Positions 3,349 through 30,177 of a DNA stretch of 45,026 nt are shown here, one piece after another. The notes under the pieces are model-generated. The model had not been told where the DNA came from. It did not search any database and saw only the letters and a program-made list of their open reading frames with translations. The position numbers and the translations under genes are program-made. Source of the stretch: Diplocarpon mali (lineage: Eukaryota; Ascomycota; Leotiomycetes; Helotiales; Drepanopezizaceae). Positions within the stretch are counted from its first letter, which is position 1; each line of letters begins with the position of its first letter. Location: assembly GCA_024741835.1 (NCBI GenBank), contig JAENRP010000295.1, positions 2,894 to 47,919 of the forward strand, written 5' to 3'.

Positions 3349-3426
3349 ACTTGTAAGCTAGGCCTAAGAGTCAATTCCGACTCCTTCCTAGGGCCAATTT
3401 CCACTTATAGGCCGGGTCCAAGAGTC
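3349..3426 (+). repeat. Two palindrome copies in a 54-bp tandem duplication, Copia-A gag-protease linker
   Basis: Palindrome copies lie at 3349-3372 and 3403-3426. They sit in a 54-base duplication whose units both begin with CTAGGGCCAATT (3334 and 3388). In the gag-pol frame they encode TCKLGLRVNS and TYRPGPRVSS, directly upstream of the protease motif. Confidence 0.85.
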
Positions 3427-4815
3427 AGTTCTTTTACCTCCTACTTCTTATTAAAATTGAGGAATCGTTAGCTATATGATATAGGTGCTAATAAGCATAT
3501 CTTTAATAATCTCTTTAAGTTCACTTCCTATACTGCTTAAGATAATCTACCCTCCTTAAGTATAGTTAATAGATCTATTCAACCTTTTAGTATTAGCACT
3601 TGCAAAGTTAATGCACTTAAATCCAATAAAAAGGTATATATTCTTAAGTTAATTAATACTCTTTATATACTTTAATCACCTATCTACCTATACTTAGGTA
3701 GCAAACTTAATAAAATCAAAGGCTTCTATCGAAATAGCAAGCTATTTCTATCTAATAAAAAGGAAATTTACACTATCGATAATAATATGTATATCAATAA
3801 GAAACAGCCTTCTACTAACTCCTCTAGTTATGTAAGTAGATATGCTCTCTTAGCTGCTATTAAGAATAGACCTCTTAATATTAAGCTCTAATACCATCGA
3901 TTAGGCTACGCTAGCTTACAAACGGTTAGAAAGACCTAATCTACTATTACTAATATATAGATTAAGGAAACAAAATTAAGAAAGACGCGAATTTGCGCTC
4001 CTTATAAGAAAGGCAGACCTCTCTAATATATTAATAAATGTTCAGCTTACCCTCGACCTATAAAGGTACTTAATAAGCTATATATTAATATATTTTATCT
4101 AAAGCCAATTAGTCTTAACGGCTACAAATACGCTTCTATCTTCACTTGCGCAGCTATAATAGCTAGGTAGGAATAGACCTATATAAATAAATCTAATGCC
4201 TTTAAGGTAAATAAGAAAATGATCAGCCTTTTACAAACTTAATACAATTGTATAATCAAGCGGTAAAGAACTAATAGAGGTAAGGAGTACTCTCCTATAT
4301 AGATGCGAATACTTATAGAAAACCTTAGCATAATTTTAAAGGAATCTACTCCTTATACGCCAGAATAAGACGGCAGATTAAAACGATTAATTCGTATACT
4401 AATAGAAAAGTTGCAAATAGCTATAATTAACTAAAATATCCCCTCCTTTCTTTAGCCTTACCTTCTTCTTTTAGTAATATATATTACAAATCTTACTGCC
4501 TCTAATATTCTAAGTAGCAAGACTCTATATAAGGTCTTTTAGGATAATATTAAGCCTGATAAGCCTTATACTCCCTTAGTTAAGTATCTTTAAGTACTAG
4601 GCTATTGTATCTATATACTAATTGAGAAAGAAAAGCGAACTTAAAGCAATAAACTCGCTTTAAGAGCAAAGGTAAGTACTCTTATTAGATTTAATAGTAG
4701 AAGTATTTATCAAATCTATATACTATTATAAATAGGTGAAAAGATTATTTAATTATCTTACATTCGATTCGATAAAGACGGCCTAATTATAAAGCTGCAA
4801 TTAAGGGGTGATTTC

Positions 4816-4938
4816 ACTCCTAGGCTAGGACCGCGAGTTAATTCTGACTCTTACGATAATAGTAATTTCACTCTTAGGCCGGGACCGCGAGTCAATTCTG
4901 ACTCTTACGATTTTACTCCTAAGCCAGGACCGCGAGTC
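4816..4938 (+). repeat. Three palindrome copies in the integrase-RT linker of Copia-A
   Basis: Copies at 4816-4839, 4870-4893 and 4915-4938 are spaced 54 and 45 bases apart. They encode TPRLGPRV, TLRPGPRV and TPKPGPRV, separated by NSDSYD-type spacers, in frame with pol. The distance from the gag copy at 3403 is 1,413 bases, also a multiple of three. Confidence 0.9.
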
Positions 4939-6741
4939 GATTTAAGAGAAGCTAATAAAGCTGAGCTTCTAACTCTAAGAAAGAGAGGAAGACCTCCTAG
5001 TTTAAAGAACAAGGCTTACCCTTAGCCTTCCGAGAAGAGAGCTACTCGCTCTACTACTCTTAGATTTAAAGCTAATAACTCTAATAATAAGAAAGCCTAT
5101 TTAAGCGCCTTCTATATGGCCTTACTCAACTCTCCTTATTCAAATGACCTAAAAACAGTCGAACAAGCCCTCTCTTGCGCTAATGCCGATAAATGGCAAT
5201 CTATAATCAACTTTAAGTATAATTCCCTCGCTTATAAGAATATATAAGTAGTAGTAAAACGCTTAAAACTCTCTAAAGATAATAGAGTACTTAGATTAAG
5301 GCTCGTCTTTAAAATAAAAAGAGATTAAAATAGGAAAATCTCCTAATAGAAGGTCAGATTTATTATATAAGGCTATATGCAATAATAAGGTCGAGATTAT
5401 AACTAAACCTTTGCTAGTATATGCAAATCTATAGTTTAGAAGATTGCAATTGCGCTTGCAGTGCTATACGACTTTAAGCTAGATCAATTCGATATTAAGA
5501 CAGCTTTCCTTAATTCAAAAGCTAACTCTAATATCTATGTCAAATTACCTCTTAGATATACTTAAAACAAGGTCGTTCTTTTACCTTAAGACTACTATCT
5601 CAAGCTTCTTAAGGCCTTATATAGCTTGAAATAATCTCTACGACTATAGTAAGAAAAGCTATAGTCTGAGCTATAAAAGCTCGATTTTCAACCTCTTAAT
5701 ATTAATAATTATATATATATCAACCGCGTCTCTCAGATTCTCATTATTACTTATATTGATAACTTCCTTATAGTAGTAAAGAAGGGTAATATATATAATA
5801 AGTTCAAAAGAGATCTTCGCAACCTCTTTAAGATTATAAGTAGCGAACCGGCTAACTACTTCTTAAGAGTACGTATAGTTAAAGATTAATAAAATAAAAT
5901 AATCTCACTTTATTAAAACGCCTATATTAATAAGGTTTTTAAACGTTTTTATATAACTAATTGCAAAAGCGTACTAATGCCTTTTGCTAATAGCTATAAA
6001 GTTCATATAGTCAAATTTGAAGGCTAAGCCACTCTATAGGAAGTAAAGCTATACTAAGAGATCTATAGTTCTTTATAGTACTTTGCGCATTATACGCGTT
6101 AGGATATACTATACTACTACTCTATTCTTAGCAAATTCCTTACTAACCTTTCGCTATAATATATAGTAGCTTTAAAACGAGTTTTATAATACTTATAAAG
6201 AACGCGATTCTATTATACTACCTTTAAAAGTAAAACAACTGACCTAGAGCTTTAGAAATTGCATAGCTATTGCGATTCTGACTAGGTAGGTAATAGAGGA
6301 AGTAGAGCCTCCTATTCTGGGGCCGTCTTCTTCCTTAATAATAAGGTAATTACTGCCTCCTTTAAGCGATAAACTATTATCGCTCTCTTATTTATAAAGG
6401 TAGAGTACATTACTATATGCAAATTCGCGTAAGAAGCCTCTTAGATATATTAAGTACTTAAGGAAATGGGCTACGCCAGCGATAATACTACTAAAGTCGA
6501 AATGATCTATAATAACTAAGGAGCCCTTTATCTTACCGAAAACCCCGAATATTACTAGAGAATGAAGCATATTAATATCAAGTTCTATTATATTTAGCAA
6601 GAACTTCGAAAAGGACATTTGGACCTCTAGTATACTAATACTAAAGATAACGCCGCCGATAGACTCATAAAGAGCTTAAATAGCTTTAACCACGCCGCCT
6701 TTATCAAATTGTTAAATATGAAGGTTTTGCACCTTAATTAA

Positions 6742-6996
6742 GAGGTAATTTTTTTTTATACCTCTATTATAAAGTGATTTTTTTTACACTTCTATTAAAG
6801 GGTGATTTTTTTTACTCCTAGGCCAGGCCCGCGAGTTGATTTTAACTTACTAAGGGGTAGATTTCGCGCTAGCGAACTGTACTCTATTTCCTATATCTAT
6901 AGGTTAATTTTTCATACAAAACTATAGATTATAACAAACGTTATAATATTATATATATTATTAGCAAGTACCTTTAAAGGTCTCCCCAAAGGGGTA
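6742..6996 (+). other. Copia-A 3' tail with T-tract repeats, palindrome copy and polypurine tract
   Basis: Three imperfect repeats of a GTGATTTTTTTT-type block occupy about 6746-6813. A palindrome copy follows at 6814-6837, still in phase with pol (1,899 bases from 4915). The polypurine tract AAAGGGGTA (6988-6996) directly abuts the 3' LTR. TRIM-T has the matching AAGGGGTA. Confidence 0.75.
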
Positions 6997-7239
6997 TATT
7001 ATAAGAATGCCCGTTATATATTTATCATATAATCTTTCATATAATATATCATACACATAATATATTATATGACTTGCCACATGACTTAGTAGCAGCCCTT
7101 ATTAAATAGCTCGTAGTTAAAGAGCTCTCATAAATCGAGATACAAGACACCTAATATCGTCGTTTGCACCTCATACTTCTTCGTGCCCTCTCTTCTAGTT
7201 TACTATCAAGTTCACTATCAGAGAACCTCCTTTGCTACA
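6997..7239 (+). repeat. Copia-A 3' LTR (243 bp)
   Basis: It is the same length as 1651-1893. It begins TATTATAAGAATGCCCG, a RIP-mutated TGTTGCAGGAATGCCCG, and ends GCTACA. The target duplication AAGGT follows at 7240-7244. Confidence 0.93.
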
Positions 7240-8483: not shown

Positions 8484-8678
8484 TGTTAAGATAGGTGATA
8501 CAGCCATCACTCCGATGTATTATCATATAACCCTACTGCTTAGTCAGTAGGATATTAATACATATATAGCTATAGGGAAGAAAGGGGTAACCTTCCTTCC
8601 TTAACTCTTATTAATATATCAACTATCGACCTTTAAAAGCCTCCTTTACCTACTGCACCGACTTACTTAAGCTTAATA
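8484..8678 (+). repeat. Copia-B 5' LTR (195 bp)
   Basis: It begins TGTTAAGATAGGTGATAC and ends CTTAATA (mutated CTTAACA). It matches 30315-30509 in length and sequence. It contains a perfect hairpin, CCTACTG / CAGTAGG with a 6-base loop, near 8541-8561. Confidence 0.92.
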
Positions 8679-9076
8679 GGTTATAAGCCCTAGCTAGACT
8701 AATAATAAATTATTAACTTCCTTTAAAAAGCACTTACGCTGTAACTATTAGTAGGAAGTTGAACGAGACTTATAATAAAAGGCGAGCAATCGGCAAATAG
8801 GAGGTATGATTCCCTATTTAGCCAACCTATATTATAAGAGGTTTGATTCCTTACTCTATAACCCTTTAGTACTATAAGAGGTATGATTCTTTGCTTTACT
8901 ATATTTTATAAGAGGTATAATTCCCTATATTATAGCCTAAAAACCCTTTTTGATAAAAGGACTTCCTTCCTATTTAATACTTTTATAATACCTACTATTT
9001 AATCATTTTAACTTTTTAATAAGAGGAGTGCCTTTAACTATTTAATTTATTTGATTTTAATGCAATTCTATTTAAA
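8679..9076 (+). other. Copia-B leader: primer-binding site and four-copy 19-bp array
   Basis: The half-initiator-tRNA primer site GGTTATAAGCCCTA lies at 8679-8692. Four copies of ATAAGAGGTATGATTCCCT and variants begin at about 8797, 8834, 8874 and 8908. The same array, inverted, is in Copia-B' (1315-1443). There is no coding sequence before gag. Confidence 0.8.
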
Positions 9077-12000
9077 ATAGCAAAAGCTTCCGATTCTGAT
9101 CGAAACACTAGACCTAAAGACCTTTAACTCTTTCAAAAGAACTAGTAATAATAGTTCAACGATTTAAAGCTTTACTTTAAGAGCAAAGGTATCGAAATAG
9201 CAATTTAAAAGATACTTATTAAATATATAAGAATAGCCTCTTATACTCCTTCTACTAATTTATCTACTTCTACTTTAATAGCTAATACAATTGCTAAGGA
9301 TTTGCTAAATATATTAAATAAGCTTAGCCTAAGAGCTTTAATAGATAATAACTAAGAATCCTAAAGGCAGATTTTAAATATAAAAAAGGAGAAGGAGTAT
9401 AAGCTAGCCTTAGCCAAATGTAAGCTTAAGATCAATAGAAGTTTAAGCGATAAAGACTAAGATTTTATTTAAGTTTATAATAATACAAAGATAAGATAGG
9501 ATACTTTAAAGGTAAAATACTTTTAAATAACTGCCTTTAATACCTAGTATCTACTATAGTAAATCACTTTATTTTAATATAAAAAAGATAAAGATAGTAA
9601 GGATATAGATATAAATATAGACTCTACTTAATCTATACTATATAAAGTAAAGAGGAGAGTAAAAGCCGTAGATCTTAAGATAGTTATAACTTTTAAGGAA
9701 ACTTAGCTTTTTAGTTTCCTACTTAATAGCCTCCCTTTTAAGTTCACTATTATAAAACAATTTCTTCTTATTTAACTTAACCTTAAGATTTATAAGAAGA
9801 TCGACCTCCTTCGAACTATTAAGTAAGACTTTAAAGGACGCTTTAAATCGGCAAATACTGCGTTATAAGGCAATAATAAGCTTAAGAAGAGAAAGGAGCG
9901 TAAGATAAGCCCTTAAGCTTATCAAGGATGCTACTTCTATAATAGTACTTATAATATTACTAATTGTAAAGTTAAAAGGCAACTAATTAATATAGTTGCT
10001 AGCTTTAATATTAAAAAGCAATTAAAGCAGAAGTTAAAAAGCAAACTGCCTTTATCCTACTAAAGGCTATAACTACTAAGGAAAGGCAAAGGAAAAGGCT
10101 ATTTAGTCAAAACTTTAGCAGATACTTCTAATAATAATAGTAAGTTATTTAAACCTAAATCTACTTTTAATAATTCAAATGATAATTATAATAAAGATGC
10201 CTATATCTTAAAAGCCGATCTTTATAAGATCCTTAAATCTAACTAGTATAGTAATACTAATTATATAGCATATATAATTGATAAACCTTACCTATTTAAA
10301 GGCCTGCTTATTAAAATAAAAAGGCGCTCTATTAAAATTAGTAGTAAAAGGTTGTATATAGATTTGATAAGTATAATAGAGATAAATATTACTAGTATTT
10401 CTTTCCTTTTGTAAAATGTTCTCCTTATACCTAGCTTAGGTATTAATCTTTTATCTAGCTATAAGATTTATATAAAGTTAAATTGTATAAGAGTTTTTAA
10501 TAATCAATTTATATAATTTATAAATAATAATTATAAAGTGATCTTTAAAGTTAAAATTAAAGATAGACTTTATATTATCTTAAAGGTAATATTATAGAAA
10601 TTGACTCCTAGGCCAGACCTATAAGTAGATTTCTTTAAAGAAAGTGCACTCTCTGCTTTAATATAATTAAGTAAGGATAGAGAGAATAGATAGACTCCTA
10701 AGCTAGGATTATAAGTAAAATTCGTAAAAATAACTTCTAAGCTAGGACTATAGGCAGAATATAATATATCTTTAAAGATAACTCTTAAGCTAGGATTATA
10801 AGTGAATTTAATAGAAATAACTCCTAGGCTAAGACTGCGAGTGGATTCTGCAGATTTGCTAATAATAATTCTTAAGCTGGGATTATAAGTGAAATTCGCG
10901 AAAATGACTCTTAGGCCAGGACCGCGAGTAGATCTTACCATTTCTAGGAAATCGACTCTTAAGCTAGGACTGCGAGTAAATCTTGCGATTTTATTAAAAA
11001 CGACTCCTAAGCTAGGCTTGCAATTAGAAAATAGCAAAATCTTAAACTGCTATTATTAGTTCTTTTTAGCTGCTAATAATAAAACATCGACTAATAATAG
11101 GCTACTAAAGTTATTAAAAGCTAAAAGCCTATTAAGGTATTAGCTAATATATAAAAGATTCATATATCTAAGGCTAAAGAAATTAAAGGGCTTGCATAAG
11201 GTCTCGATTTTAAAATAGAAGATCTAAGTACTAAAGGATCGCTTAATATACCGAATTTGCAAGTTGATAAAACTTTGAAATTAAATATAAATTAAGCTTA
11301 GTTTATAGAAAGATTCGATATTAGCGCTAATATCTATTAATACTGCTAAACTATTTATAACCTTAATCAAAGGAAATAATTGGCTTTTTTAAATAGTAGA
11401 TAACTCTACTTAATAGATATAGACTATTTATATTAAGATCAAATTTAAGCTTATAGAAAAGCTAGAAACTTAGAAAGTGATAAAGGAACGCTAGACTTAA
11501 TTAAAGCTAATAGCTATTAGGTCTAATAATATATTAAAAATTAAAGCAAAGCTTGATAAATAGGTAAAATAAGGAGTTTATTATAAATTAACTATAATAT
11601 ATAAAGGTTCCTATTAGAATAGTATTATTAAGTAAAGTATTTAGTAAGTAGAGATTAACTATCGCACTCTATTATAAGATACTAACCTACTATTAGAATT
11701 CTAGGACCTTGCGATTAAGGCAAACGTATACCTGCGAAATAGAATAGGTAGTAGACTAATAGTTAATAGTACTTAAATATCACTATATAAGATATATTTT
11801 AAATAGAAACCAAGCTTGGACTATATCTATGTCTTTAGAAGCGTCTGCTACTCCTATATTAGCCTGAAGTCTTAGCCCGCGGGTATAAAGAGTAAGAAGC
11901 TAATAGACTGAGGTAAAGAATATGTATTTATTAATTATATTAAATAGATAATAAAGCAATAGATAGTATATGCGCTAGATCTAAGGCAAGTAATTATATC

Positions 12001-12551
12001 CTTAGTAGTTGAGTTCGACGAATCTCGAAATAGGAGGGAGCTGTCCTTAAAGCTTTATATACCTAGAGATTCGCAAGGTATACTACTCGATAGTAATACT
12101 ATTAAGCCGAACTAATAACCCCTTTCTCTTAGCTTAAGTATATTAAGCGCATTTGCTAATCGATGACTTACTAATCGCTTAAAGGCCGAATAGACTATTC
12201 CTATTGTCTGCGAACTGCCTAAAGTATAAAACAACTTTAATATTATTATCCCTTTAGTTAAAGCACCTATAGTAAAGGATGTTCCTAAAATAGGTATAAG
12301 TAATAATAAGCCTTTACTATTAGAAAGCGGTTCTTTAAATGATAAGTCTATAGAACCTATAGCCGAACCTACGCCTTTAAAGAGGAATAGAGACTTAGAA
12401 TCGGAAGATACCTTAGATAAACGCGAGTTTAAACGTATCTAAGCTATAATAGCATATAGGATCTATAAGCTTAAACTTTAATAAAGCTTCGATAAAGATA
12501 ATGCGTTCTTAGCTGCTAGGAGGATAATAAAAATCTCTCTTTTAAAGATAT
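9077..12551 (+). pseudogene. Copia-B gag, protease and integrase (5' half of polyprotein)
   Basis: The gag frame begins at 9077 (ATA from ATG; the intact codon is in Copia-B' at 1164). A knuckle remnant G-C-Y-F-Y-N lies near 9928. The protease motif near 10250 reads S-N-T-N-Y-I-A-Y-I, explained by S-D-T-G-C-T-A-H-I plus G-to-A and C-to-T changes. The pre-integrase landmark NVLLIPSLGINLLSSYKI is at 10418-10470. Nine palindrome-encoded octapeptides follow (10604-11026). The integrase then runs from about 11090 to 12060 and ends in the copia C-terminal block KPSLDYIYVF with VVEFDES. The connector to the reverse transcriptase runs to 12551, where Gypsy-E interrupts the codon. Nearly all stops are TAA or TAG. 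Confidence 0.88.
10604..11026 (+). repeat. Nine-copy in-frame array of the dispersed palindrome
   Basis: Copies start at 10604, 10694, 10733, 10781, 10820, 10868, 10907, 10955 and 11003, each 24 bases. The spacings are 90, 39, 48, 39, 48, 39, 48 and 48, all multiples of three. In the Copia-B frame each reads T-[PL]-[KR]-[LP]-G-[LP]-[RQ]-V or a decayed form. Because the unit is nearly palindromic, the opposite strand is also open over this stretch (10570-11037), which is a shadow. Confidence 0.92.
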
Positions 12552-12796
12552 TATAAAACAGAGGGGAGACAATACAAGAATAGGCCTAAGGGAAGACCTA
12601 AAAACAAGAGGAGGAAGCACTATAAGCGGGCTCTCCTAGACAAGATATTAGGAATAAGTCCTAAGTATAGGGTATATTCAGTACTATAGCGACACGCGCT
12701 ATCTCTATATATAGAAAATGGCCCTTTTATCCTCCTACCATCCTGCGTCAATTATATAATATATATTATAAGACCTATCTATCTCAGGTCTCTATA
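12552..12796 (-). repeat. Gypsy-E 3' LTR (245 bp)
   Basis: It is the same length as 28103-28347. On the plus strand it begins TATAAAACA (mutated TGTAAAACA) and ends GGTCTCTATA, where the other copy has GGTCTCCATA. The differences are mostly transitions. Confidence 0.9.
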
Positions 12797-12923
12797 TATA
12801 TTCTAAATAATAAAAGTAGTAGCCCCTACTACTATTAGCAAAGAATATAAAATAATATAAGTTAAGGCAATAGCATATCAATTACTAGCAAACCTTAAGT
12901 GCAAGAAAACTAATATATCAAAA

Positions 12924-13057
12924 NNNNNNNNNNNNNNNNNNNNNNNNNNNNNNNNNNNNNNNNNNNNNNNNNNNNNNNNNNNNNNNNNNNNNNNNNNNNN
13001 NNNNNNNNNNNNNNNNNNNNNNNNNNNNNNNNNNNNNNNNNNNNNNNNNNNNNNNNN
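12924..13057. other. Assembly gap (134 N)
   Basis: A run of N lies between the 3' LTR and the second accessory frame of Gypsy-E. The true length is unknown. Flanking bases 12797-12923 and 13058-13182 hold no gene; one palindrome copy is at 13080-13103. Confidence 0.98.
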
Positions 13058-13182
13058 TTTTTATATATATGCGCTTTTCACCTACGGGCTGGGCCTAGGA
13101 GTCAGAAAAAGAAACTAGCAAAATAAACAAATAAGCTATAGAATTATAAAAAAAAATAATTAAAATAAAACCAACCTAGGCG

Positions 13183-16100
13183 TTAGTTTTCCTTAGTTCT
13201 CTTTAAAGGATAGGGAAAACTATTATTAGATAATACTCTCTTTACCGAACGACCACTTCTTCTTATAGTATTGCTATTAGTATCTAATAAGGCAGGTCTT
13301 AGTATAGCAGGAGCTTCTATACTCCTTGCGGATACTAGTATAATATAATAGCTTCTGCTAATAGGAAGAAAGACTTATATAGTAGCGTTATTATTATTAT
13401 TATTATTATTATCCTTAAGGGAATTGTTAGTAATAGAGGAAGGGGAGGCAGGAGATTTTATAAACACTACTTCCTTAGCCTTACCCTTTAATAGATTAAG
13501 TTGCAAGCCGGGCTTAGGAGTTATATCAAGTGTCTTTATATAAGGCTTTTTAGTACTATACTTCTTAAGGAGTATCGTCTTATTAATTATATTATCAGCT
13601 TCGATATTATTATCTATATCCTTAGTCTTTATCTAAGACTTATCGCTATACAACTATAGCTCTAGTTGTTAAACTAGCTTCTAAGTACTAGCAAAATCTT
13701 TAAAAAGTTCTTATTTATACTTCTTTAAATATACTATCAGCTAAGATACGTCTTTTGCGAATAAATCCTTTATAGTTATTACTACTAATAGATCACTCTA
13801 TAATTATCTTCTTATAAAAGCGTCTGATAGTAGACTACCTTTTATTATATTAAGCGTTATACGAAACTTGGCTAAGGCTTCTCTAGCAATACTCTATCTT
13901 ATTATACTTGGTTTCTTTATACAAATGGAATTAATAATAAATTCTTCTAAGTCAGCGCTATTCTCAAGTGATTCATTGCTAATAACTTTTATATAGTTAT
14001 TGCTAATAGCGAGAAAACCACCCTTTCCAAGTTCTCTATTAGAATCTAGGTTAATAAAGGTGCCTTATCTTATAAATACTAAGAATAGAGTAGTCTTATT
14101 AGAAATATATTCCTTTAGAATTGTTCTATCTTTAGTATTTAATTCTTTCTATTAAGTTATACTCTATACCAGATTTAATAAGATCTATTAAGAGTTCTTA
14201 AGGTAATAGGATATAAGTATAGATAACTTATAAGACTTTTCCTATATAGTAAATTCTTTAGTCGATTATTTAGCTATTAAAATTATATAGTAGTTAATAG
14301 TTCTATTATTAGGTGAATTGACCTGCGAGCTGGGCCTAGGAGTTAATCTTACGAATCTTATATTAGCGTTAATCTTAGTAGAAATAATTCGCAAATAGTA
14401 GTCAATGCCTATAAACTATATAAGCTTAGGATCCGCTACTAGCTTATATAAAGAATTATAATAAGTCAATAGAGCACTAAGATATAGACTATAGTGCATC
14501 CTTAAGGTCTGCTATATTAAGCTATAAGTCATATTATAAAGGAAGGCAAAAGGGGGGCTTAGCTTCTTATTTAAGGTCTGGAAATAGTATTGGTACATTT
14601 CTAGCTCCTCTTATACTAATATTAAAAATGAATTCTTTTTATAATTATTATAACTATACGTACGTATAGTACTTAGGAAAGCGTAGCTAAATAATTTAGG
14701 CATATTTAAAAAACCTTTGCTATAAAGTAATATTAGGTTATCATTAATTAGTATAGTACTATATTAAGCAAGAGTCCAAGCGATATTATAGAATAATTTC
14801 AAAGCTTTAGGCTTTACTTTAAACTTAGCGAAACCTAATAATATATCTTTCTTAACCTAGCTTACTATTCTATTGCTAATAGCCATAATTGCATAATTCC
14901 TTAGGTATAGTAAAAACAACTTTAAGTTAGGTGTAGTATAAAATTTATATATATTAAAGGAAACTTGCTTATTAGTTAGAGATACTATTATCAGCTTATA
15001 ATATTATATATATTATTATTTATATAAAGTATAAAATTTTTCGAAACTGAAGTCCTCGAATATCCTTATTACAAATTTGCTCAATCGTATCTTCATCTTT
15101 AGTATTATTATAATCTTAAATCTATTGCTATATTAAAGTATTATCTTAATATTAAAGGGAACTTTATAGCACTCTATAAATATGATTATTATACTATTTT
15201 CTAGCTTTTCTTTAAGGATATAGTAGTTGCCCTTCGATTTCTTATGCTTAATAAAGAAATACATAATATTATCTATAGAAAATTCGTCTTATTATAGCTT
15301 TATAATTTATTTAACAGCTTTTACTATTGTTTCTTATACTAGTAAAACTTCTTTTTAACCTTCCTTTTTCAAACGCTTTATTATTAACTTATAGAATTTC
15401 AAAATAAATTTTTATAGGTCTTTGGAAAAGGTTTATATAATATTAGCTATATCCTTTTTAATATTATTAAAAATTTCTATTATATTAATAATAGGGTTAT
15501 TCTCTTTATCTATCAGATTATCTTCAGAGTCTATATTATTATATATTCTAACCTATAGGCTAGGCTTATAAGTCAACTTCTTTACTATTAGTATTCTAAG
15601 TGTTTAAGGCATCTCTAAGGATAGTGAATCAAACTTATCTAAGTCTAATAATTAGTGATTGCAATAGTCAGCTATTTAAGTTCTAAGTATTATAAGTACC
15701 TCCGGCTTAAGGACATCCTCCTTATATAGTACTTCCACCTATAGGCTAGGCCTATAAGTCAAATTTTGCTTATCAGTTGAATCTTCTAAGAGTAGTAGCA
15801 TTTTCTAAGCAGCAGGTATAATAAACTCCTATCTTTCTATCTTATTATTAAAGTAGTTTATAATATACTTAGCTAGATAGATTATCTTTTCCTTTATAAT
15901 AAGTAAACTATATTATGACTATTGCAAACCGAGGGTATTTAAAACTGTTTAGTCTAGTAATGTAATATTATTATATTAAGAGGGGCTGTCCTTTATAGTT
16001 TAAATAGCAGAATAGACAATAGTACTTGAGAAACCTATAAATTTTCTACCTTGCGTACTATTTCCCTGCAGCTTTTTTATACCCTTTTAGATAGTGAAAT

Positions 16101-16689: not shown

Positions 16690-17140
16690 ATTATTTAAGA
16701 AAGATTAATAATATAAGAGGCCTATACTAAAAAAGATTGATAATAGAAAGATAATAGTGGTAGTACTAGTATTATAGGTCTAGTGGAGTTATAAAGAAAG
16801 TAAAAAAAGTAAAATCGTTATATAGGAAGAGGCTTATTTATAGAGTTTGGAATCGCGCTAGTATACAAAGGAAAAGTGGGCATAATAAGCTTGGAAGTAG
16901 AAATAAAAGTAGGATATAATATATATAAGGACCTATAATTAGTAAATGATAATTCTTTAAAGGTGAGGATAATATTTCAAAGGTAAGTATTAGAAAGTTG
17001 TATATAAAGGAAATAATCAAAGGGTAGATTATATAAAGAATAAAGTAAAGTAAAGAATATATATAGAATAGAATAATAAATAGAGAATAAAGAGGTATAG
17101 GTATATAAAAAGTAGATAATCCTAAAAAAATTCAATATTT
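16690..17140 (-). promoter_or_regulatory. Non-coding spacer upstream of accessory ORF 2, pyrimidine-rich on the coding strand
   Basis: The plus strand here is strongly purine-rich, so the minus (sense) strand is rich in C and T, as many fungal promoters are. No long frame crosses it; the minus ORF at 16838-17020 is low-complexity Leu/Ile. A matching block lies upstream of accessory ORF 1 (20510-20870). A promoter role is inference. Confidence 0.35.
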
Positions 17141-17192
17141 AATTTGCAATTTCTTTAAATGGTTTTCAAAGGGGAAGGTAGACTATAATTCT

Positions 17193-20100: not shown

Positions 20101-20504
20101 GAATTAATATTTATTAAAAAATATAAATAAAATAGGAGTCCTCTCTTATTAGTGGCTAAATTATCCAGTCGTCGAATAGATTCTTCCCTTTTGTCTTAGT
20201 CCATTTTGAAAGTATTAGCTAAGGTTATATATTAATTTGTATTAGCTAAGAATTCCTCTTTAAAGATTCCCTTTAGTTTTAATTCTTTAATTAAGAAGTT
20301 GTCAAATTAGAGAATTCCAAAGGCTACTTAGGTTGAAAGGTTACTAATAGCATTCGCGTAAGTTGAAAGGAGTTTTTATTACTCTATATCTCCTAAGGTT
20401 ACGTAGGTCGCTTTAAAGCTCTCTAACGATATAATAGCTCTACTATCTTAAGAGAAGTTTGTAACTAATGCTTATTTATCCTCTATTATAGTAGATAAAA
20501 CCAT
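17193..20504 (-). pseudogene. Gypsy-E accessory ORF 1, unknown protein of about 1,100 residues
   Basis: I do not recognise the family. The minus-strand frame starts at a possible ATG, 20502-20504 (MVLSTIIEDK), just downstream of the pol end, and runs to about 17193 with almost only TAA and TAG interruptions. It is colinear with accessory ORF 2. Segments include SLESFKATYVTLGDIE near the N-terminus, KFEIKGLYARLDSFFNN in the middle, and a basic C-terminus with KRRR. Palindrome copies at 17386, 18271 and 19657 share one phase (spacings 885 and 1386) and read LTCEPGLRVR, FTYSPGL-stop-VNF and DLTRSLRLRV. A middle segment (FTLIDIIQFFNNYK) weakly resembles the gypsy gag block NIIDFLKQYKE, so a distant gag origin is possible but unproven. 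The plus-strand frame at 18622-18852 is its shadow. Confidence 0.65.
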
Positions 20505-20880
20505 TTATAAGTTCTTTAAAGGTATATTACTTATGAAAGATAGGGAGTATAAATAAGAGAGTTTAATAGGGTATAAGAATTAAAAGGGCATATAAGCTAT
20601 AATAGGTTTGCTATATATATATTAAGGAAATTGGACTTTTTATTTATTATTTAAGGAAAGTAATAGGAATATTATAATTAAAAGCTAATATTAAAAATGT
20701 AAAATAAGTTAGAGCAGGCAAGAATTTAAAATGATCCTAAAAGATCTATATCTTAAATAATAAAGGAGGCAACCTTACCGAAAATGTAAAAATAAGGATT
20801 AAAGGAAGGTAAGACAATTAATAGGCTAGGAAATCGTTTAGTATTCCTATTTGCATTCTTTAGATATTTTAAGAATAATA
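20505..20880 (-). promoter_or_regulatory. Spacer between pol and accessory ORF 1
   Basis: A non-coding stretch with the same purine bias on the plus strand as 16690-17140. A degenerate palindrome-like sequence lies just beyond it at 20920-20943, in the pol C-terminus. Confidence 0.35.
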
Positions 20881-23800
20881 ACTTAAAGTTGCAATTAATT
20901 AGGTATTTTAATATTCTTTACTTATAAGACCAGCTTATAGGTTAAATTGGAAAAATCTTGGTCTTTATCTAAGGGTTTAAAATTGCTTATATTGCTGTTA
21001 GTTCTTATAAAAGATTCGAAGGTTATATCAATTTCTAATTTGTCTTCTAAGGGGAATAAGGTCTAGTCGTATTAATAAAAGCGCTTTAGTCAGTTAGCTG
21101 TAAAGGTTCCTTTAATATCAATTCTATTAAATTCCTAAAGAGAATAGTATCCCTTTTCTTTTTACTTAGACTTAACCTTAAATGGACTAAGCTATTAATA
21201 GTTAAGTTTAATATCTATAGATATATTAATACTTCTTATAATATTATAGACTAAGATAAGATTATCTTTTCTAATAGAGTGCATTTTAAGTACTTTAAAA
21301 GCAGCCTACGCTTCCTTAGCTTTTTCCTAATATCATTTCTTTTATAAAATGATTTCCTTTATATCTATATCTTAGAGCTTAAGTTATTAATATCTTATTA
21401 TAAGTAAATTAGAACGGTTCCGAATTTGACTATAGTTAAATAATCTTTAAATAGGCTATTAGGATTTAAAAGAGAGCTATGCCTTTCTACTATAAATAAG
21501 GAAGAATAGTATAACTCTAATTAGTTTATAGATTATCATTTAATAAGTAAAGAGTATTTTATAAAAGCGTTTTATCTAATCCTTAAATCCTTTACAAGTA
21601 ACTTTAGATAGACTATTAAGAATATTATAGTGTCCTTATTCTACTATTCTATTAGCTTTCGAGTTATACACTAAGATTTGAACCCGTTTAATACTATATT
21701 TTCGTAAGAAAGCTTCAACTACTCCTTTATTTTCAAGGCCTCTATTAATAGTTAATCTATTAAAAAGTCTATAGCAATAGACCACATCTTCTTAAAGGAA
21801 CTTTATAATAGATTCAAAGTTAGCAGATCTTAAAGGTTATCCTTTAGGCCATTTTAATAGGTCTTCCTTTACTAAAATAAAATATATTATCCTATTCTTA
21901 ATAGTTAATACTTATATAATATTAAAGCTGACTTTATAAAAAAGGCCTAATGGCTAGGTTAAGAATAAAGGATTTTCCTTACAACTAGGTTTTCGTTTCT
22001 AATAAGGGACGTAACTCTTTACAAAAGCTTTACAGTTCTTAAAAGAGCCTTTTCAAAAGAATTTTCTTAAGAGTTAGTAGTAAGTAGACTTAGCTCCTTA
22101 GTAGCCAGTTTCCTTATAAATATCCTAGATAGCCTTAGCCCTTAGTTTTTCGTTATTTAAGCAAAGTCGTATAGGGAATAAGTTATTACTCCTTTTAAAC
22201 AATCGTCTTCCTTACATTAGATAAATCAAAGCTTTAGCTTTGAATTTCTGAAAATCCTTAAGAGCAACTGTCTTTAATTATTTAAGTATAATTAAAAACT
22301 TTACGATTTCTTCAAAGTCACTTAAGTAGTTAGGTAATAAAATTCTCTTATTTAACTCGCAGGCTAAGCTCGCAAATCAAATCCCTTTAAAGCAATATAT
22401 TAATAGATAACCAACTTCGTTTTCTACCTACTTATTAATATCTATTTTGTCTTCTTTAATTAAATCAGAGGGATAGGGCCGAGTTCTTCTTAAAAGGCCG
22501 TCGGCAGTAGTATTTTTTATTCTTAGAATATATTTAACTTCAAAGTCTATTAGTCTTATTTAAGTAATCCATTTTATTAGTAAGACTCTTAATAGGTCGT
22601 TTGCAACTCTATTTAATTATTCTACTAACACTTTAGCATCGGTTTTAAGAATAAAGTAAGTGCTATAAAGGTTGCTTCTTATCTTTTTTATCGCCTTTAA
22701 GGCGCCTTTATATTCCTATTTAATAGCATTATACTTTATCTCCGCTAGATTCTAAAGACCACTTTCAAAGCGAGCTAAATATCTTTTCTACTAAGTATCA
22801 GCTTATTAAAGGACGGCATCCTATTTGATTAAACTTGCGTTAACTATTAGTATAATTAGCCTAGCGTCGGCTCTATAGTCTATTTTGATCAAACAAGGCG
22901 CCTTAAGCAACGCTTACTTCAATTGTTTTATAGCCTCTATTTAGGGTTTCTCCTATTGAAACTCAGCCCCTTTCCGAAATAAGGAGTAAATAAGTGCTGC
23001 CTTTTTAGCAAAATCCTTGATCCAAATGCAATAGTATACTATAATACCAATAAATGCGCAAGCTTCTACTATATTATCATACCTCTTCTATTTGTCGATT
23101 TTAAGTACTTTAGCCCTCTAAGGACTTCAGCCATTAGAATTAGTAATAAAACCAATAATTTCCATTGATAGAAGATAGTATTATAACTTTAGACCGACTA
23201 TTGCTCTTGCCCTTTTAAATTATATAAGCACCTAGTCCAGGTTCTAAATGTATTCTATTATAAATCGCTATATACTAAGGAGAACTTCTTTATAATTATA
23301 AAATGATCTTAATCCTTTTACTCCTATATCGTTTATATAAGGGAGCGTAATATTAGGTATATAATTCACTAGTATCTTATAAATTACTTAAACAAATTAA
23401 GCGATCGAATTTATAACCCCTTAAGGTAATCTTATTATCTAAAGTAGCTTAAGAGGGGTTTGAATTGCTATTATATCTCTCGATTTAATATTAAGAATAA
23501 ATTAGTCGTATCTAAAGAAGAAGTTAATAAGAGAGCTGCAGGTTAATCTTATAAATTCATTTAAGAACTTATCTATATTCAAAGGAATATTAGCGTCTTT
23601 AATAGTTACTCGGTTTATCTCTACTACTACTATTATTAGTTTGTAAGTTCCCTTCTCCTTCTTAGCAACTAAGAACTATTTGTTCTTATAAGGGCTATTA
23701 TAGAACTTAAGAACACTTTACTTTAGCCTATCCTTTAACATTTCGATTACCTTTTCTTAAAGAGCTTTAAGGACCCTGAATGTTTTCTCTTGCTAGGCTT

Positions 23801-25010
23801 TATAGGATATTATCTTAATCTTAATATAAGGCGTAACCTCTTCTCGAATCTGGCTAAGTTCCGTTTAATCAAAAGCTAAGGCGTCCTCTCGATTTATCAA
23901 GGTTTTATAAAGTAATTCGCATTTTTACTCTATTAAATCTTCTTTAATTTTCAGCATATTAAAACGTTCTTTTATTAATCAATATCCAATGGATTTATTA
24001 GAAAATCTGCTTATAATAAACTTATCGAATTTGCCACCTAGCTTTAAAGGTCAAAGCTTCTTATCTTATTTAAACCAATTATCCAATCCTCTAGGCTTTA
24101 AGCTATTAGAGATTCCCTAATCCACTAGTTATACTTTATCGGCCTTGCTTTTATATATAGTTCGAATATTAGCTAATACTATACTTCTCTACTTCTTTCC
24201 TTTTTTATCAAATCCTATAAAACAGTCCGAATTTTCCTTTTTAAAAATAAATAAAAGATTTTCTAAGTTGTTAATTTAAAGTGTATAAATGGAAATATTA
24301 TTAGTAATTTTATTATTTTTCACTTGCAGGTCCGGCTTATAAGTGGTTTTTAGGTTTTTTAAAATAATTAGTAAATTGTCGAAATTTATAAAACAAACTC
24401 TCTTCTCTATCTTATTTTTCTTTTTTCTTAATTGTTAAGCCGATAAAACGCCGATTATACCATTTTTCAAAATCCCAGATTTAACTCTTAGTCTAAGACT
24501 ATAAGTCAAATCACTATTATTTAAAATTAGCAAACTTACCTTTCTTTTACTATAACTCCTCGCTAAGTGCCTTCCCTTATTAATATCAAGCCTAGCCCTT
24601 ATACTAGCTAATCGTTTCTTAAAACCTTATTTTAAAATTCGGCTATATCTCTTATAATAACTATTTGTCCTTTTAAAAATCGATCTATATTCTAAAGACT
24701 AGCTTTTATAAGACTATCTCTAGGATAGTTAAATATTAGCTAAGATTTTAAAATGAAAGGCATTCTTAAAAGAATATTATTTAAAGAATTCTTTATTATT
24801 AGAAAGTTAGTATAATTAATAATTCCTCCGACTTTAACCTTTACGTTTTTCACCTATTTATTAAAATTGTATTTCGATCTAAAGATAGTCAAATAAATAA
24901 GGAATCGATCGCTAACAATTATTAATTAAGCTATTTCTACCACTTTTCTAATTATTATATTAACTTCTAAACTACAATTGATCAGAGCCTTTGCTTTAAT
25001 TAATTCTTCT
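20880..25010 (-). pseudogene. Gypsy-E pol: protease, reverse transcriptase, RNase H, integrase
   Basis: On the minus strand the protease remnant lies near 25000-24650 (LEVNIIIRKVVEIA, once D-x-G-x-E-V-N). Reverse transcriptase spans about 24130-22980: NKQFLVAKKEKGTYKL, then LPQGVINSIA, then the active site PYINDIGVKG, where YIDD has become YIND. RNase H follows to about 22450 and ends TTADGLLRR. The integrase has the zinc-binding N-terminus (AIWDIYKETGYWGAKS, SYVPYQKRKPS with Cys to Tyr), the core with LTINRGLENKG (D to N), and ANRIVEQGHYNIL. Pol ends near 20880 with TANRLKRFY, the usual fungal gypsy C-terminus. The PYIDDIGVKG signature is typical of a widespread fungal gypsy lineage. Confidence 0.88.
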
Positions 25011-25899
25011 ATTAAATAAATAATAATAAAGCTTTTTATCGCAACTGCTAAACAATTTCAATTGATATTCTGAGATATTAAAGCTATTACTATAATATTA
25101 TAGTACCTTTAAGTTCCTTTGTTTTCTATAATCTAAAGACATTTGATTAAGGCTAAGTGCTTCTTAAAGTTCTTTTATATTATAATTTCCATTTCCTTAT
25201 TATTATTCAAATCTTTAAAGGCAACTGAGATATACTTTCCTAGCACTTTATTAAAGCGTCTAATCAAACTAAATAGGTCTTTAAACGTAAGGTTAATTTG
25301 CTAAGCTATGACATTTTCTACAGCTTTCTCTATTGCGATTGAACTAGCGTATTTATTAACGAATTTTTCCTATTTTAACATCTGTCTCTTTCGCTTAAAG
25401 TCAGGGGTCTATATAATAACTTTAACTTCTTAATCTTTAAGCTTAAAGCTATCTTCATCTATTATATCTTTAATCAATTCGTCTACTATATCAGCTTTAT
25501 CCTTATCTACTATAGTTCCAGATTATTAAGTATCTTTTAACATTTAGACTCTATATTAAGATTCCTAAGTTGCATATGTTAATTTCTAGACTTTAGCTGG
25601 TTTTATCAATATTAAAGGAGTAGTAGATCTAAAAGGACGCTGAGTATTCCAAGGGTTTCTAAATATAGAAGTAGTATTAATATCAGCAGATATATTATTA
25701 TTAATCTATCCTAAGATAGAGATGCCTTTAACTTCTATAGCTATTTAATCAAAAGCTAGGTCCTTAAGAACTCCCTTAGGTAGGTTGCTAATTAGACTAG
25801 TATATATATAAGTTGGAATTTTAGCGTTTATATCTATAACACGCTATCGTTCAACTAAATTCTTATCCTATTTCGTACTATATATTATCGTTCGAATAG

Positions 25900-27340
25900 T
25901 CTATAACTATAAGTGATTCTAGTGCTTTTTAATAGAGATAGCTTCTAGCCTAGGATCTTTAATGCAAAGCATCCTATACTTATTAATATATATAACCCTA
26001 GTATTAATAAAATAATAGAAAAGAGGGCAATTATTATAATACTTATATAGAGCGCAGTTAGGTTCTTTATTATTGCAAAAGTTGCAGGTTAGTCGTCTTC
26101 TATTACTATTCTATTAGTACCTTATAATATTAATATTAGTAAAGTACTAGTTAGGATTAATTTCTCCTTCTTTAATCAACTATTAAGTTCTTATATTAGC
26201 TGGTTATTCTAAATAATAAGAAGCAAGAGTCTGGTAATAGGAACTACTATATTAGCTTATAGTGGCCGAGTTTTACCTATTACCAAATTAGGGAATATAC
26301 TATTTTTCCTATAAGAGATTATTAATCCTGGTTTTTAAGCTTTAAATTTAAAGTTCTATAAATTAGGTCTTAAGTTCCTTAATTCTAAGGTTGGATCTTA
26401 CTCCTAGGTCAGGACCGCGAGTAAAAGGTATGATTATTAAGTTCTTCTTTACCTCCTTTATAACTTCTAAAGCCTTTGAGTATTCTTAGACCAGGCTCTT
26501 AAGGTCTTTAGTATAAGAGGGAGTAGGGGCTTTTTCCTACTCTATAGCATTAATGATTCTCTTACTAAGATCTGATTTTAAAGTAAAGGCCGCGAATTCC
26601 TTAAATAAGGCAAAGGTTATAAGGTCTTGCTTATTAATCCTAAAATGCTTAATAATCTTATTTTAGAATCCAATAGGTAATCTAAGTAAGAAAAGGCGGC
26701 CTCTTTCAACTTCGCTAAGTATTTTCTAGCTAATTAAGTTATTTAATATATAAGTAAAAGTCTAATAGTAGTTCTTAAGTTCCTTAGGAATATAAGTGAC
26801 CAGAACAAATTCCTTTAAGAAAGCTAGGGTATTGCGAATCTACTATCTATCAAATTTGCAAAATTCAGATTTAAGGGCCTTAATAAGGACTTCTTATAAA
26901 CTATAAGTTTTCCATTTGAGGAGAGACTTGATAATATCCTTACTTATATAATTATAGTAGCAAGGAAGTCGAGAAATCATATCCTTTTGCATAATACTAA
27001 AATCGTAATAAGTTTCCTTATATTGCTTAAGGAAATCAATAATATTAGCGCCTATAAAGTAAGGAGCGCTAAGGGAACTAAGGAGGGAAAAGTGACTAAT
27101 AATAGCCCTAAATGCGGCTATTATCGTTTTATACTAACCGTCTAGGTTAATAGAATCTATAGGAGGCAAAAGAGAAGCTTCGATATTATAAGATTAATTG
27201 CTAAGAGGAGTACTTCGAAATTCAAAAGGGCTTAAAGAATGTTTAGAATCTGAGTCAATCTTAGAGTAACTAAAACGAGTTTAAAAAGATTTAAACAAAG
27301 GATTAGTGAAAAGTTCAAAATTGTTATTATTTTTAGTATT
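25900..27340 (-). pseudogene. Gypsy-E gag
   Basis: On the minus strand the frame reads EASLLPPIDSINLDG, then the landmark GANIIDFLKQYKETYYDFS with RLPCYYNYI, then LLKWKTYSLQEVLIKALKSE. This block is characteristic of gag from the same fungal gypsy lineage as the pol. A Cys cluster, TCNFCNNKEPNC, lies near 26090-26050 and may be a nucleic-acid-binding knuckle, though its spacing is not the canonical CX2CX4HX4C. A palindrome copy at 26400-26423 is in frame (FTRGPDLGVRS). The copy at 27409-27432 lies upstream in another phase, probably outside gag. Start and end are approximate. About 890 bases (25010-25900) to the protease hold a poorly preserved linker. Confidence 0.75.
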
Positions 27341-28084
27341 TTCTAATATTAATATTAAAAAAGTAAGTAGCAGTCCTAAGTTATTTAAAGATATCTTTTT
27401 ATCCTCTTACTTATAGGCCAGGCCTAGGAGTAGAATTCCAGATTCTGCTAAAAGTTTAATCTAAGTTTATTAAAAGATTTTAAGTAAGTGCTAAATAGCT
27501 AATAGGAGCGTTGCAACTAATTGTAATAAGATAAGGTTTACCTAATTAAGGACTAATTTCTAAGATAAGGTTTGTATCTAAGATTCTTCTTAGCCTTTAG
27601 GCTAATTCCTATTAGTCCTTAGAATAAAGGGGTCTCTAAAGACGATTCTAAGGCAATTTTTAAAGTTCTATTAAGCTAAGGCAGCTGAATTATCGGATTC
27701 GGATTTCTAAAGATTCTAAGGAGGCACTTCCGATTGGAGTTTGCGCTTAGTATTACTTAAGTACTCGAAACTACTGCTATTTAAGATTACTATTATAAGG
27801 TTCGCCAAACTTTTTATACTAGGAAGCCGAAAATTCCGAAAATCTCAGAGTTAAGGAAGAAAATAGGGGTTTTTAAAGCAAAGCCGAAAAGGGAAAATCT
27901 AAGGTTATTAATAGTTGCTAAGCGAAAATCGATAGTTCTAAGTAATTAGGCGATTAAGGATAAGGTTTTAGAGTTAATCAAAATGCTATAAGTGTTTCGA
28001 AGACGTATTTCAAAGGCCAGTCTCTTATCTGTAAATTAAAAGATTAATAAGGTTGTATAAGGATAGAAATCTTAAGAAATCAAT

Positions 28085-28102
28085 CCCTGCGTAGGTCACT
28101 AA
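28085..28102 (-). other. Gypsy-E primer-binding site
   Basis: Directly inside the 5' LTR the minus strand reads TTAGTGACCTACGCAGGG. Allowing G-to-A at RIP sites, this fits a one-base spacer plus TGGTGACC..., complementary to a tRNA 3' end in ...GGTCACCA. Gypsy elements usually prime from a full tRNA 3' end, unlike the half-tRNA site of the copia elements here. The tRNA is not identified. Confidence 0.5.
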
Positions 28103-28347
28103 TATAAAACAAAAGGGAGATAATATAAGAATAGGCCTAAGGGAAGACCTAAAAACAAAAGGAGGAAGTACTATAAGCGGGCTCTCTTAGATAAGATATT
28201 AAGAATAAGTCCTAAGTATAGGGTATATTCAGTACTATAGTAATACGCGCTATCTCTATATATAAAAGATAGCCCTTTTATCCTCCCACTATCCTACGTC
28301 GATTATATAATATATATCATAAGACCTATCCATCTCAGGTCTCCATA
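28103..28347 (-). repeat. Gypsy-E 5' LTR (245 bp)
   Basis: The partner of 12552-12796, equal in length. It starts (minus strand) TATGGAGACCTGAGATGG and ends TTTTATA, a mutated TTTTACA. Confidence 0.9.
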
Positions 28348-28351
28348 ATAT

Positions 28352-30010
28352 ATAATAAAGCTATTAATAACCTAAAGAATAGAGTAGTATAGAATAAGGC
28401 AATTTAAAAGGAGATAAGCTCTTTTATTACAAATGGTATATAGATAGAGGAACTAATGCTAAAGGATATAAACCTAGTATTAATAAAGTGAGTCTTTATA
28501 ATTAAGATATATATAGATAGGACCTTAGAATGTTATAAGGTAAGGCTGTCGTGCATAATACCGCTCGGCCAAAATGTGAATCCACACCTTAGGGCGCGTA
28601 CTAGCATATTTAGCCTATTTTCTGCATAACAAAGGCTTATAGCTAAAGGCTTCTCCTAATAGTATGGAGAAGACTACTTCGATACATTTGCGCCGATAGT
28701 TCGCATAGATACCCTTTATATATTTATAGTAATAGTAGCTGCTAAGGACCTTAAATGCAAATAGTACGATATTAAAAATGCATTTACTAAAGCGATTATA
28801 AAGGAACGGATTTTTCTCTCCTAACCTAATAGTATTCCTATACGCGCTAGCCACTTTCTTTATATACTTTATAATATCTATAAGCTTAAATAATCAGCTT
28901 ATAATTAGAACCTCTTATATAGCTCTACTTTAATAGAAATAGGATTTGTTTAAAGCCTAGCTAACCTTTATCTATTTACCTATATTAAGCGTAGAATTAA
29001 GTTGCTATTATATATCAATAATATTATTATAGTTATAAAAATAACTATTTAATTAGATTAGTTCTTTATAATAATTTGGAAACGTTTTAATACTAAAGAT
29101 CTAAGGGGAATTTATAAGATCCTTAGCATTTGCATTATAAGGAACCGCTCTACTTGAGAATTCTAGTTGGATTAAGAGTAGTATATTAAAAAGATCCTAG
29201 ACTAAATAAGACTTTCTCCTTATGCTTCTAACTTTAAGCTAAAGCGTACTCTAATCGAAGGAAAGTATAATAAGTTAGAGCCTATTAATAAAAATAAGTA
29301 GAAAGGAGATCTGAAGAAGTACTAATAGGATATTAAAGCAATTATATATACTATAGTATATATAAGATTAGATATTGCCTTTGTTATTAAGCAACTTAAT
29401 TAAAACTTAAAGGATCTAACGATTTGATATAAGAATATAGTTAAGCGATTTAAAAGGTACCTTCGATTAATAATTATATAAAAGGTAAGATATAGATTAA
29501 CGAAATATATAAGTGCAAAGCTTAAGGTATATACCGATTCTAATTAGGCAAATATAAAAGGTTAGAAAAGTATATTTAAAAGCGTAGTAGTGCTATATAA
29601 TAGACCTATATTATAAAGAAGTAAGAAGTAGAAATCAGTAGCTATTATAAGCACTAAGGCCGAATATATATTAATATTATTAAATTGTAAATAAGGATTA
29701 TAAATTACCTAGGTTTTAAAAGATATAGGTTTTGCTAAGTATATTAGATAAGATAGGAATTATATTAATCTTTAAGCAAATAATATAAAGGCGATTGCAC
29801 TTATAAAGAATCTATACTTATATAAGCAATTGAAATATATTAATATTACCTACTACTTTATCTGCGACCTTATTATAAAGAATAAGTTATCGATTACTTA
29901 TATCTTAACTAATTAAATAGTAGCAGATGGATTTATAAAGTCATTAGAGATAATTGCAAAGTTCGAAGCGTTTAAAGATATACTAAGGTTATAGAAGATA
30001 ATAGGAGCTT
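28352..30010 (+). pseudogene. Copia-B reverse transcriptase and RNase H (3' half of polyprotein)
   Basis: The frame resumes after Gypsy-E with YNKAINNLKNRVV, then KEISSFITNG. It is interrupted at Y-K-V-R-L by the solo LTR and continues IAKGFSQ. Reverse transcriptase motifs follow: GEDYFDTFAPIVRIDTL, then CK-stop-YDIKNAFTKA, then the active site LLYINN near 29010-29027, where YVDD has lost both Asp to Asn. RNase H (VYTDSN, STKAEY, then ITYYFICDLI) ends with DILRL and IGA near 30010. The minus-strand frame 28615-28854 is a shadow. Confidence 0.88.
28547..28631 (-). mobile_element. Solo LTR of TRIM-T in the Copia-B reverse transcriptase
   Basis: This 85-bp copy of the TRIM-T LTR, inverted relative to 7778-7862, keeps intact termini TGTCGTGC...GCATAACA and is flanked by a perfect 5-bp duplication AAGGC (28542-28546, 28632-28636). 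Removing it with one AAGGC restores Y-K-V-R-L-I-A-K-G-F-S in the reverse transcriptase. It is less mutated than the TRIM-T copy at 7778 and defines the family's true ends. It implies insertion followed by LTR-LTR recombination. Confidence 0.93.
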
Positions 30011-30026
30011 AGTAGGCTTAAGGACG

Positions 30027-30177
30027 ACTCTTAGGCCCGCCTTGCGAGTCAGGTTATATAGTCTTATAAAGGAAAGTTTTTTAAATCGACTCTTAGGCCT
30101 AGACCGCGAGTTAAGTTATATAGTCTTATAAAGGAATGCTTTTAGGAAATTTGACTCTTAGTCCCGCCTTATAAATA
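30027..30177 (+). repeat. Three palindrome copies in the Copia-B 3' tail
   Basis: Copies at 30027-30050, 30089-30112 and 30154-30177 lie in imperfect tandem units sharing GTTATATAGTCTTATAAAGG. The spacings, 62 and 65, are not multiples of three, unlike the arrays inside coding regions. They follow the end of RNase H. The rest of the tail (30178-30314) holds no feature. Confidence 0.9.

Follow-up and report, generated by a model that had tools for sequence, protein, structure and literature searches.

VANDAL elements of Arabidopsis carry the VANC motifs, a short motif of two types that occurs in many copies per element and in tandem arrays whose copy number changes (PMC5735166). These motifs are 8-9 bases long, mainly non-coding and in one orientation, and their protein is known; the VANC6 motif is also found in AT9TSD1, a transposable element unrelated to VANDAL, and the available text of the paper makes no use of the word palindromic (PMC5735166). 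Rickettsia palindromic elements are repeated palindromic DNA often found in frame inside proteins (PMC10969869). Here we describe a 23-bp dyad that resembles both. It recurs within long terminal repeat (LTR) retrotransposons in a window of 45,026 nucleotides from the apple pathogen Diplocarpon mali (assembly GCA_024741835.1, contig JAENRP010000295.1, positions 2,894 to 47,919 of the forward strand), the window being that whole stretch. The motif looks more like an old protein recognition site than a tiny mobile element.

A conserved palindromic sequence is likewise known from fungal Copia elements of the GalEa type, as a 9-bp hairpin site that adjoins the 5' LTR and is described under an unusual primer-binding site (PMC5445492). 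Nested plant LTR elements show a weak preference for short palindromes, with no comparable shared motif in the text available (PMC6911290). In D. coronariae, strain DC1_JKI has 20.74% Copia and 5.67% Ty3 sequence, about a quarter of its genome, and the genome published for the species has 34.15% repeats, mostly Copia (PMC11527701). The stem "palindrom" has no use in the main texts, as far as available, of two Diplocarpon genome papers, of which PMC11527701 is one. Among open-licence papers in PubMed Central, motif strings brought up no title on fungal transposons, and the titles and abstract openings listed for the topic did not contain the motif.

The dyad and its arm rule

The motif is a dyad of 11-1-11 bases in which positions 1-4 and 8-11 are conserved and the central position 12 is free. 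Positions 5-7 take one of two states and define two arm types, X (ACTCCTAGG), with CTA or TTA, and Y (ACTCGCGGG plus transition derivatives), with GCG or derivatives such as GCA, ATA and GTA. A weak dyad extension runs outward, position -2 being C or T in 63 of the 64 arms of the window sites and position -3 in 55 of 64, and with these flanks the motif reaches about 33 bp. The information content of the bare site, summed over positions, is about 27 bits. Among copies of one site in the element called Gypsy-E below, Y forms interconvert by transitions. Such changes are the pattern expected from repeat-induced point mutation, which is established in fungi.

An earlier note on this window had listed 31 starts of an imperfect palindrome, and all 31 bear the motif. 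Applied to window positions 1-41000 at 14 bits, a symmetric weight matrix covering both orientations finds 32 sites, the one overlooked being at 20920 and also present in three other Gypsy-E copies. The matrix was trained on the window sites themselves, which score at least 16.3 bits when left out. Across 20 second-order Markov sequences the same matrix at the same threshold gives a mean of 0.25 site, so that the comparison with random sequence of like composition, proposed in the earlier note, yields less than one site against 32 observed. The CGC and TAT arm variants reported there are real, but both are the same arm type, Y, related by transitions. Its consensus with two X arms fails, being found in 0 of 32 window sites and 19 of 7,456 genome sites. 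By arm combination the window sites are X-Y (19), Y-X (6) and Y-Y (7), with X-X absent (n = 32).

The genome-wide search that the note had called for covered 49.4 Mb and returned thousands of copies: at least 7,456 sites, against 0 to 3 matches for control patterns. Chance origin is ruled out by these controls and the Markov sequences. A loose symmetric pattern gave 6,189 forward and 6,260 reverse matches (2 and 3 for the reversed control), totals that are not site counts because most sites match on both strands. By arms, the genome holds 6,367 X-Y sites (3,091 + 3,276), 1,070 Y-Y sites and 19 X-X sites, each with controls of 0. Independent pairing of arms at their overall frequencies would yield about 1,375 X-X sites, compared with the 19 observed, although the copies are related and the arm counts are therefore not independent events. 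At position 5, pyrimidine meets pyrimidine in 1 of the 106 sites in the window and sampled stretches. The two-X form is the one arm combination avoided. As a separate observation, the rare X-X dyads cluster in Copia-A, described below: 5 of the 19 lie within its matches, and 6 further ones, 345-357 bases ahead of an RVT_2 match, sit by position at the place of the Copia-A array.

Arms separated by spacers of 2-31 bases had no match genome-wide, with a pattern that covers X-left sites with unmutated conserved positions. The motif lacks the features of a miniature inverted-repeat transposable element, namely terminal inverted repeats around an internal segment and a target-site duplication; by eye, the site flanks contain no target duplication. 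The window has no tRNA gene and no Rfam match, and viral contigs gave 0 matches to one motif pattern.

This anatomy bears on a role in RNA. A packaging or dimerisation signal of element transcripts would agree with the placement of the sites, since all 32 are internal and the LTR matches hold 0 of 32. On one strand, however, X-Y arms are unpaired across positions 5-7 (read off the sequence, no folding having been run), and a centre of 1 base makes no hairpin loop. Both orientations occur relative to the sense strand, which points to recognition of duplex DNA rather than RNA. We consider an RNA-level element very improbable.

Host elements and reading frame

Copia-A (1659..7237, plus strand) is bounded by LTR matches at 1659-1891 and 7005-7237, and has an RVT_2 match at 5440-5562 that falls below the curated cut-off (25.4 bits against 31.6, E 1.3e-5). 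Its dyads lie at 3349..3371 and, 54 bp past that site, at 3403..3425 (both Y-X); at 4816..4838, in an array upstream of the RVT_2 match, 4870..4892 and 4915..4937 (all X-Y); and near the 3' end at 6814..6836 (X-Y). All six share the frame of the RVT_2 match and are read in one phase of the dyad, phase A, least clearly at 6814. To the left of Copia-A, window positions 1-1651 hold an inverted Copia-B piece, 1-1246 of which pairs with 8995-10240 at 89%.

Copia-B (8486..30516, plus strand; LTR matches 8486-8685 and 30317-30516) is interrupted by Gypsy-E and survives as the parts 8486-12548 and 28348-30516. Its pieces have no Pfam match; we assign it to Copia by position, because its 3' site type lies 853 bases past an RVT_2 match over the cut-off at 3 of 3 loci compared (C41, C83 and C414). 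The array comprises nine X-Y sites in phase A, at 10604..10626, 10694..10716, 10733..10755 (right end decayed), 10781..10803, 10820..10842, 10868..10890, 10907..10929, 10955..10977 and 11003..11025. Three more X-Y sites lie in the 3' region, at 30027..30049, 30089..30111 and 30154..30176.

Gypsy-E (12549..28347; LTR matches 12549-12796 and 28100-28347) is 15.8 kb long, with the minus strand coding by stop counts. A piece from one of its copies has a Ty3-type RT_RNaseH match below the cut-off (21.8 bits against 24.8, E 2e-4), and most other pieces have no significant domain match. Downstream of the RT_RNaseH match are two long extra open reading frames (ORFs), paralogous to each other at about 30-48% identity, piecewise. 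Sites in phase A are at 13499..13521 (Y-X in plus-strand orientation, read in phase A on the minus strand) and 14321..14343 (Y-X); 15551..15573, 15737..15759, 17386..17408, 18271..18293 and 24322..24344 (Y-Y); and 19657..19679, 24484..24506 and 26400..26422 (X-Y). The Y-Y site at 22355..22377 is in phase B, within a 144-residue piece that is open through it. No clear frame is seen at 13080..13102 (Y-X, near the LTR), 20920..20942 (Y-Y) and 27409..27431 (Y-X). A run of N lies inside Gypsy-E beside the LTR, at about 12930-13060, the whole window having 134 N.

Family F, on C1, also carries the motif and is Ty3-type by an RT_RNaseH match over the cut-off (C1:516184-516495, 66.9 bits). The motif thus has carriers in at least two Copia and at least two Ty3-type families, and other LTR elements are free of it. 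The claim that its hosts belong to different superfamilies is borne out by Copia and Ty3 matches, those of Copia-A and Gypsy-E being below cut-off; so is the statement that Copia-C (32452-40509) and the GC-rich end of the window have none, both with 0 sites. Elsewhere, a 10-kb stretch with a Ty3-type RT_RNaseH match at C1:388469-388774 has no dyad, and the Ty3 element there seems to be without the motif. In the GC-rich end, positions 41966-43483 (minus strand) encode a CBM_1 protein with GVFPTG-type repeats, and the DNA there has a 15-bp tandem repeat at 42446-42700. A protein of Marssonina (Diplocarpon) coronariae matches it at 98% identity across 84% of the query, so that the genome is from this species or a very close one.

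The sites are concentrated in AT-rich repeat DNA. In the window plus 20 genome stretches, 11 of which were picked for nearby matches, one-kb windows below 35% GC hold 93 sites in 116 windows, those of 35-45% hold 12 in 45, and those above 45% hold 1 in 84. Nine stretches picked regardless of matches contain 0, 0, 10, 1 (spurious-looking), 0, 7, 0, 0 and 0 sites. The single match above 45% GC, L041:7281, appears spurious, though it is counted among the 106 sites; outside AT-rich repeat DNA, the 84 kb above 45% GC, a small sample, yielded nothing convincing. The motif was also considered as a target site of nested insertions and rejected on the junctions examined: Gypsy-E in Copia-B, at 12548/28348, and the nested elements in C1:500001-530000 join at non-palindromes.

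By stop counts, 25 of the 26 sites with a clear frame are in phase A (6 in Copia-A, 9 in Copia-B, 10 in Gypsy-E), the least clear being 6814, 18271 and 26400, and 22355 is the one in phase B. The in-frame placement proposed earlier therefore holds where sites are coding. Among the best 40 of 201 Copia-A matches, query included, length differences over 4650-5050 are all multiples of three. The Copia-B 3' region behaves otherwise: relative to the frame that has the fewest stops, each of its three sites falls in a phase of its own, so that, if this stretch were coding, the motif would be read in all three, and of 39 other full matches 21 are of equal length, 17 are off by 1 or 2 bases and one by 3, with no frame constraint among copies at 30027. 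The DNA motif is identical in both settings. Since the phase-B site and the frame-free 3' sites carry the same motif, it is, on the reading of these sequences, the DNA and not the peptide that is conserved.

A peptide, T-x-x-P-x-x-R-V, might nonetheless be selected in polyprotein linkers, with the DNA palindrome a by-product of coding. The preference for phase A, although Y-X and Y-Y sites allow another phase by their codons, and the multiples of three in the Copia-A array would both follow from it. Neither the reading of 22355 in phase B nor the 3' sites of Copia-B, in three phases and with copies that differ by 1 or 2 bases, would be expected; moreover, there is restriction at third codon positions 3, 15 and 21, which a peptide alone would leave free. 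We regard this explanation as improbable. A protein search with a piece of the Copia-A linker gave 1 candidate, with none at E <= 1.

Fixed positions and conservation as DNA

Every one of the 42 homologous positions in four further Gypsy-E copies is filled. These comprise 14 in each of two long copies on C1, 7 of 7 in L040 and 7 of 7 in L043, the last two partial; in the first long copy 13 sites are whole within the sampled loci and one, C1:399991, spans a locus boundary. Length comparisons used the 39 other best-scoring matches per region, out of 293 candidates for Gypsy-E, 201 for Copia-A and 567 for Copia-B. Around sites 24322 and 24484 (Gypsy-E 24150-24650) length is unchanged in 39 of 39; in these best matches it shifts by at most 9 bases either way over Copia-A 4650-5050, and by at most 3 over Copia-B 29850-30300. 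A shortening of about 23 bases, as an empty site would give, occurs in none of the 39 in any of the three regions.

The positions also appear to be old. The seemingly isolated site C1:292109 occupies the position homologous to window site 27409 in a Gypsy-E relative of about 66% identity. That relative, L037:7407-9238 (C1:291407-293238), is diverged and decayed, with pieces at 66-86% identity, lies in a GC-richer region and keeps one dyad. Between the paralogous Gypsy-E ORFs, the site pair 14321/18271 aligns directly, and 15737/19657 and 13499/17386 correspond in their distance from aligned pieces, to within about 6 and about 60 bases; 15551 and 20920 have no clear partner. Arm types differ inside pairs, and none is X-X. 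Gain and loss are seen solely as unit change in tandem arrays, with 9 versus 10 sites in Copia-B and 1 versus 2 in the third array of family F.

These data go against the idea of the earlier note that the palindrome is a small mobile element: the same site is present in all family members within the Gypsy-E copies and best matches examined, part of what the note had named as evidence against mobility, and neither insertion polymorphism nor independent gain at different sites was found. A tiny self-dispersing palindrome would have to have inserted into retrotransposons, in frame and otherwise, mostly before the families expanded, and then have been carried along. Some observations suit such a history, namely about 27 bits shared at many non-homologous places of unrelated families, agreement in phase at 25 of the 26 clear sites, and both orientations relative to the coding strand. 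Against it stand the filled positions, the constant lengths in all three regions, retention across deep divergence (the relative at about 66% and the paralogous ORFs), the lack of convincing sites above 45% GC and of target duplications, and the near-absence of X-X, which one would not predict if a symmetric element had been copied. Either copying or strong selection is needed to put about 27 bits of shared sequence at many non-homologous places across unrelated families, and for this reason dispersal by insertion, though unlikely, keeps a minor but real share of the probability.

Substitutions in sites were compared with near flanks, within 60 bases, in few and related copies, Copia-A being represented by three alignments. 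Transversions are fewer in sites than in near flanks for Gypsy-E (6/966 against 122/4,881, P 6e-5) and the Copia-B array (1/989 against 27/1,612, P 4e-5), and number 0/552 against 5/1,563 in the Copia-B 3' region, which is not significant. Gap openings are 0/966 in Gypsy-E sites against 19/4,881 near (P 0.06), 0/552 site bases against 13/1,563 near-flank bases in the Copia-B 3' region (P 0.03), and 0/161 against 7/499 in Copia-A (not significant). Transitions are as frequent in sites as in flanks or more so.

Template switching or gene conversion between unrelated elements during reverse transcription, followed by drift and with no present function, could account for a motif common to two superfamilies and for tandem arrays with unit change. 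Yet the shared sequence ends with the weak flanks of the dyad, beyond which the neighbouring sequence differs, and conservation exceeds that of the near flanks in Gypsy-E and the Copia-B array. This history seems to us a poor candidate.

A proposed recognition site and comparable systems

A recognition site is consistent with the constant spacing of the arms, their dyad symmetry, the use of both orientations, the rule for arm types, conservation at the level of DNA and occurrence in more than one LTR family. That the motif is an ancient one, common to Copia and Ty3 families and read by a predicted two-part DNA-binding factor, is a reading to which we give about half of the total weight. The site, two-armed and 23 bp long (about 33 bp with flanks), is fixed within families in the copies examined and lies in linkers between protein domains as well as elsewhere. 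Its predicted reader would be a sequence-specific protein, dimeric or with two domains and encoded by the host or by an element, that binds each site and requires a Y arm on one side while accepting either type on the other. An element with several sites would be occupied more fully and would profit, perhaps through protection from silencing, through insulation or through stimulated expression, in analogy to VANC proteins on VANDAL motif arrays, and arrays expand and contract through change of tandem units. The motif, its rules, its fixity in these copies and its conservation as DNA are observations, whereas the protein, its binding and the advantage to the element are inferred from them.

Several points weigh against a recognition site. 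The arm-combination figures come from related copies rather than independent events. In Copia-A, transversions run in the opposite direction (4/161 in sites against 5/499 near, not significant) and exceed those of far flanks (31/5,997, P 0.01); compared with far flanks, the Copia-B array has no transversion deficit and that of Gypsy-E is weak (P 0.02), and gap openings in the Copia-B array are 3/989 in sites against 12/15,368 far (8/1,612 near). That phase A is so strongly preferred suggests a role for the peptide as well. For promoter or enhancer sites, a distribution along whole elements and away from the LTRs is unusual, and about 27 bits is much for repeated independent origin without copying. 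A candidate for the binding protein was not found: seven pieces of the Gypsy-E extra ORFs have no Pfam match over the cut-off, and two have no significant PDB match.

Should the motif prove to be a binding site, two superfamilies of retrotransposons would have one predicted DNA-binding protein in common, which could be retrieved directly with a 23-bp bait. The X/Y arm rule is a sharp and testable signature, and the motif marks these elements genome-wide.

The gypsy insulator of Drosophila, a retrotransposon's array of Su(Hw) sites bound by a host protein, offers a likeness; it differs in being one array in the untranslated region of one element, with no dyad across several superfamilies. With Rickettsia palindromic elements the dyad shares in-frame position within ORFs. 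It does not have their length of about 150 bp with a peptide-coding ORF; it is a 23-bp motif (about 33 bp with flanks) at fixed positions, seen only in retrotransposon DNA, and for host genes the same small sample above 45% GC holds 0 convincing sites. A possibility that we think doubtful is a dyad of 23-33 bp that disperses itself; it would have spread in frame through unrelated retrotransposon families of a eukaryotic nucleus, would be kept by a protein that needs one Y arm, and would be the nuclear equivalent of Rickettsia palindromic elements, with other mobile elements as its home. Unlike VANC motifs, the D. mali motif is a 23-bp dyad, lies largely within ORFs and belongs to LTR elements of two superfamilies. 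As with those motifs, it is short and concentrated in particular transposable elements, low-GC windows being rich in it and Copia-C having 0, and it forms arrays with changing unit number in Copia-B and family F. If the recognition reading is true, the sequence-specific interplay of element and host known from plant VANC would extend to LTR elements of a fungus.

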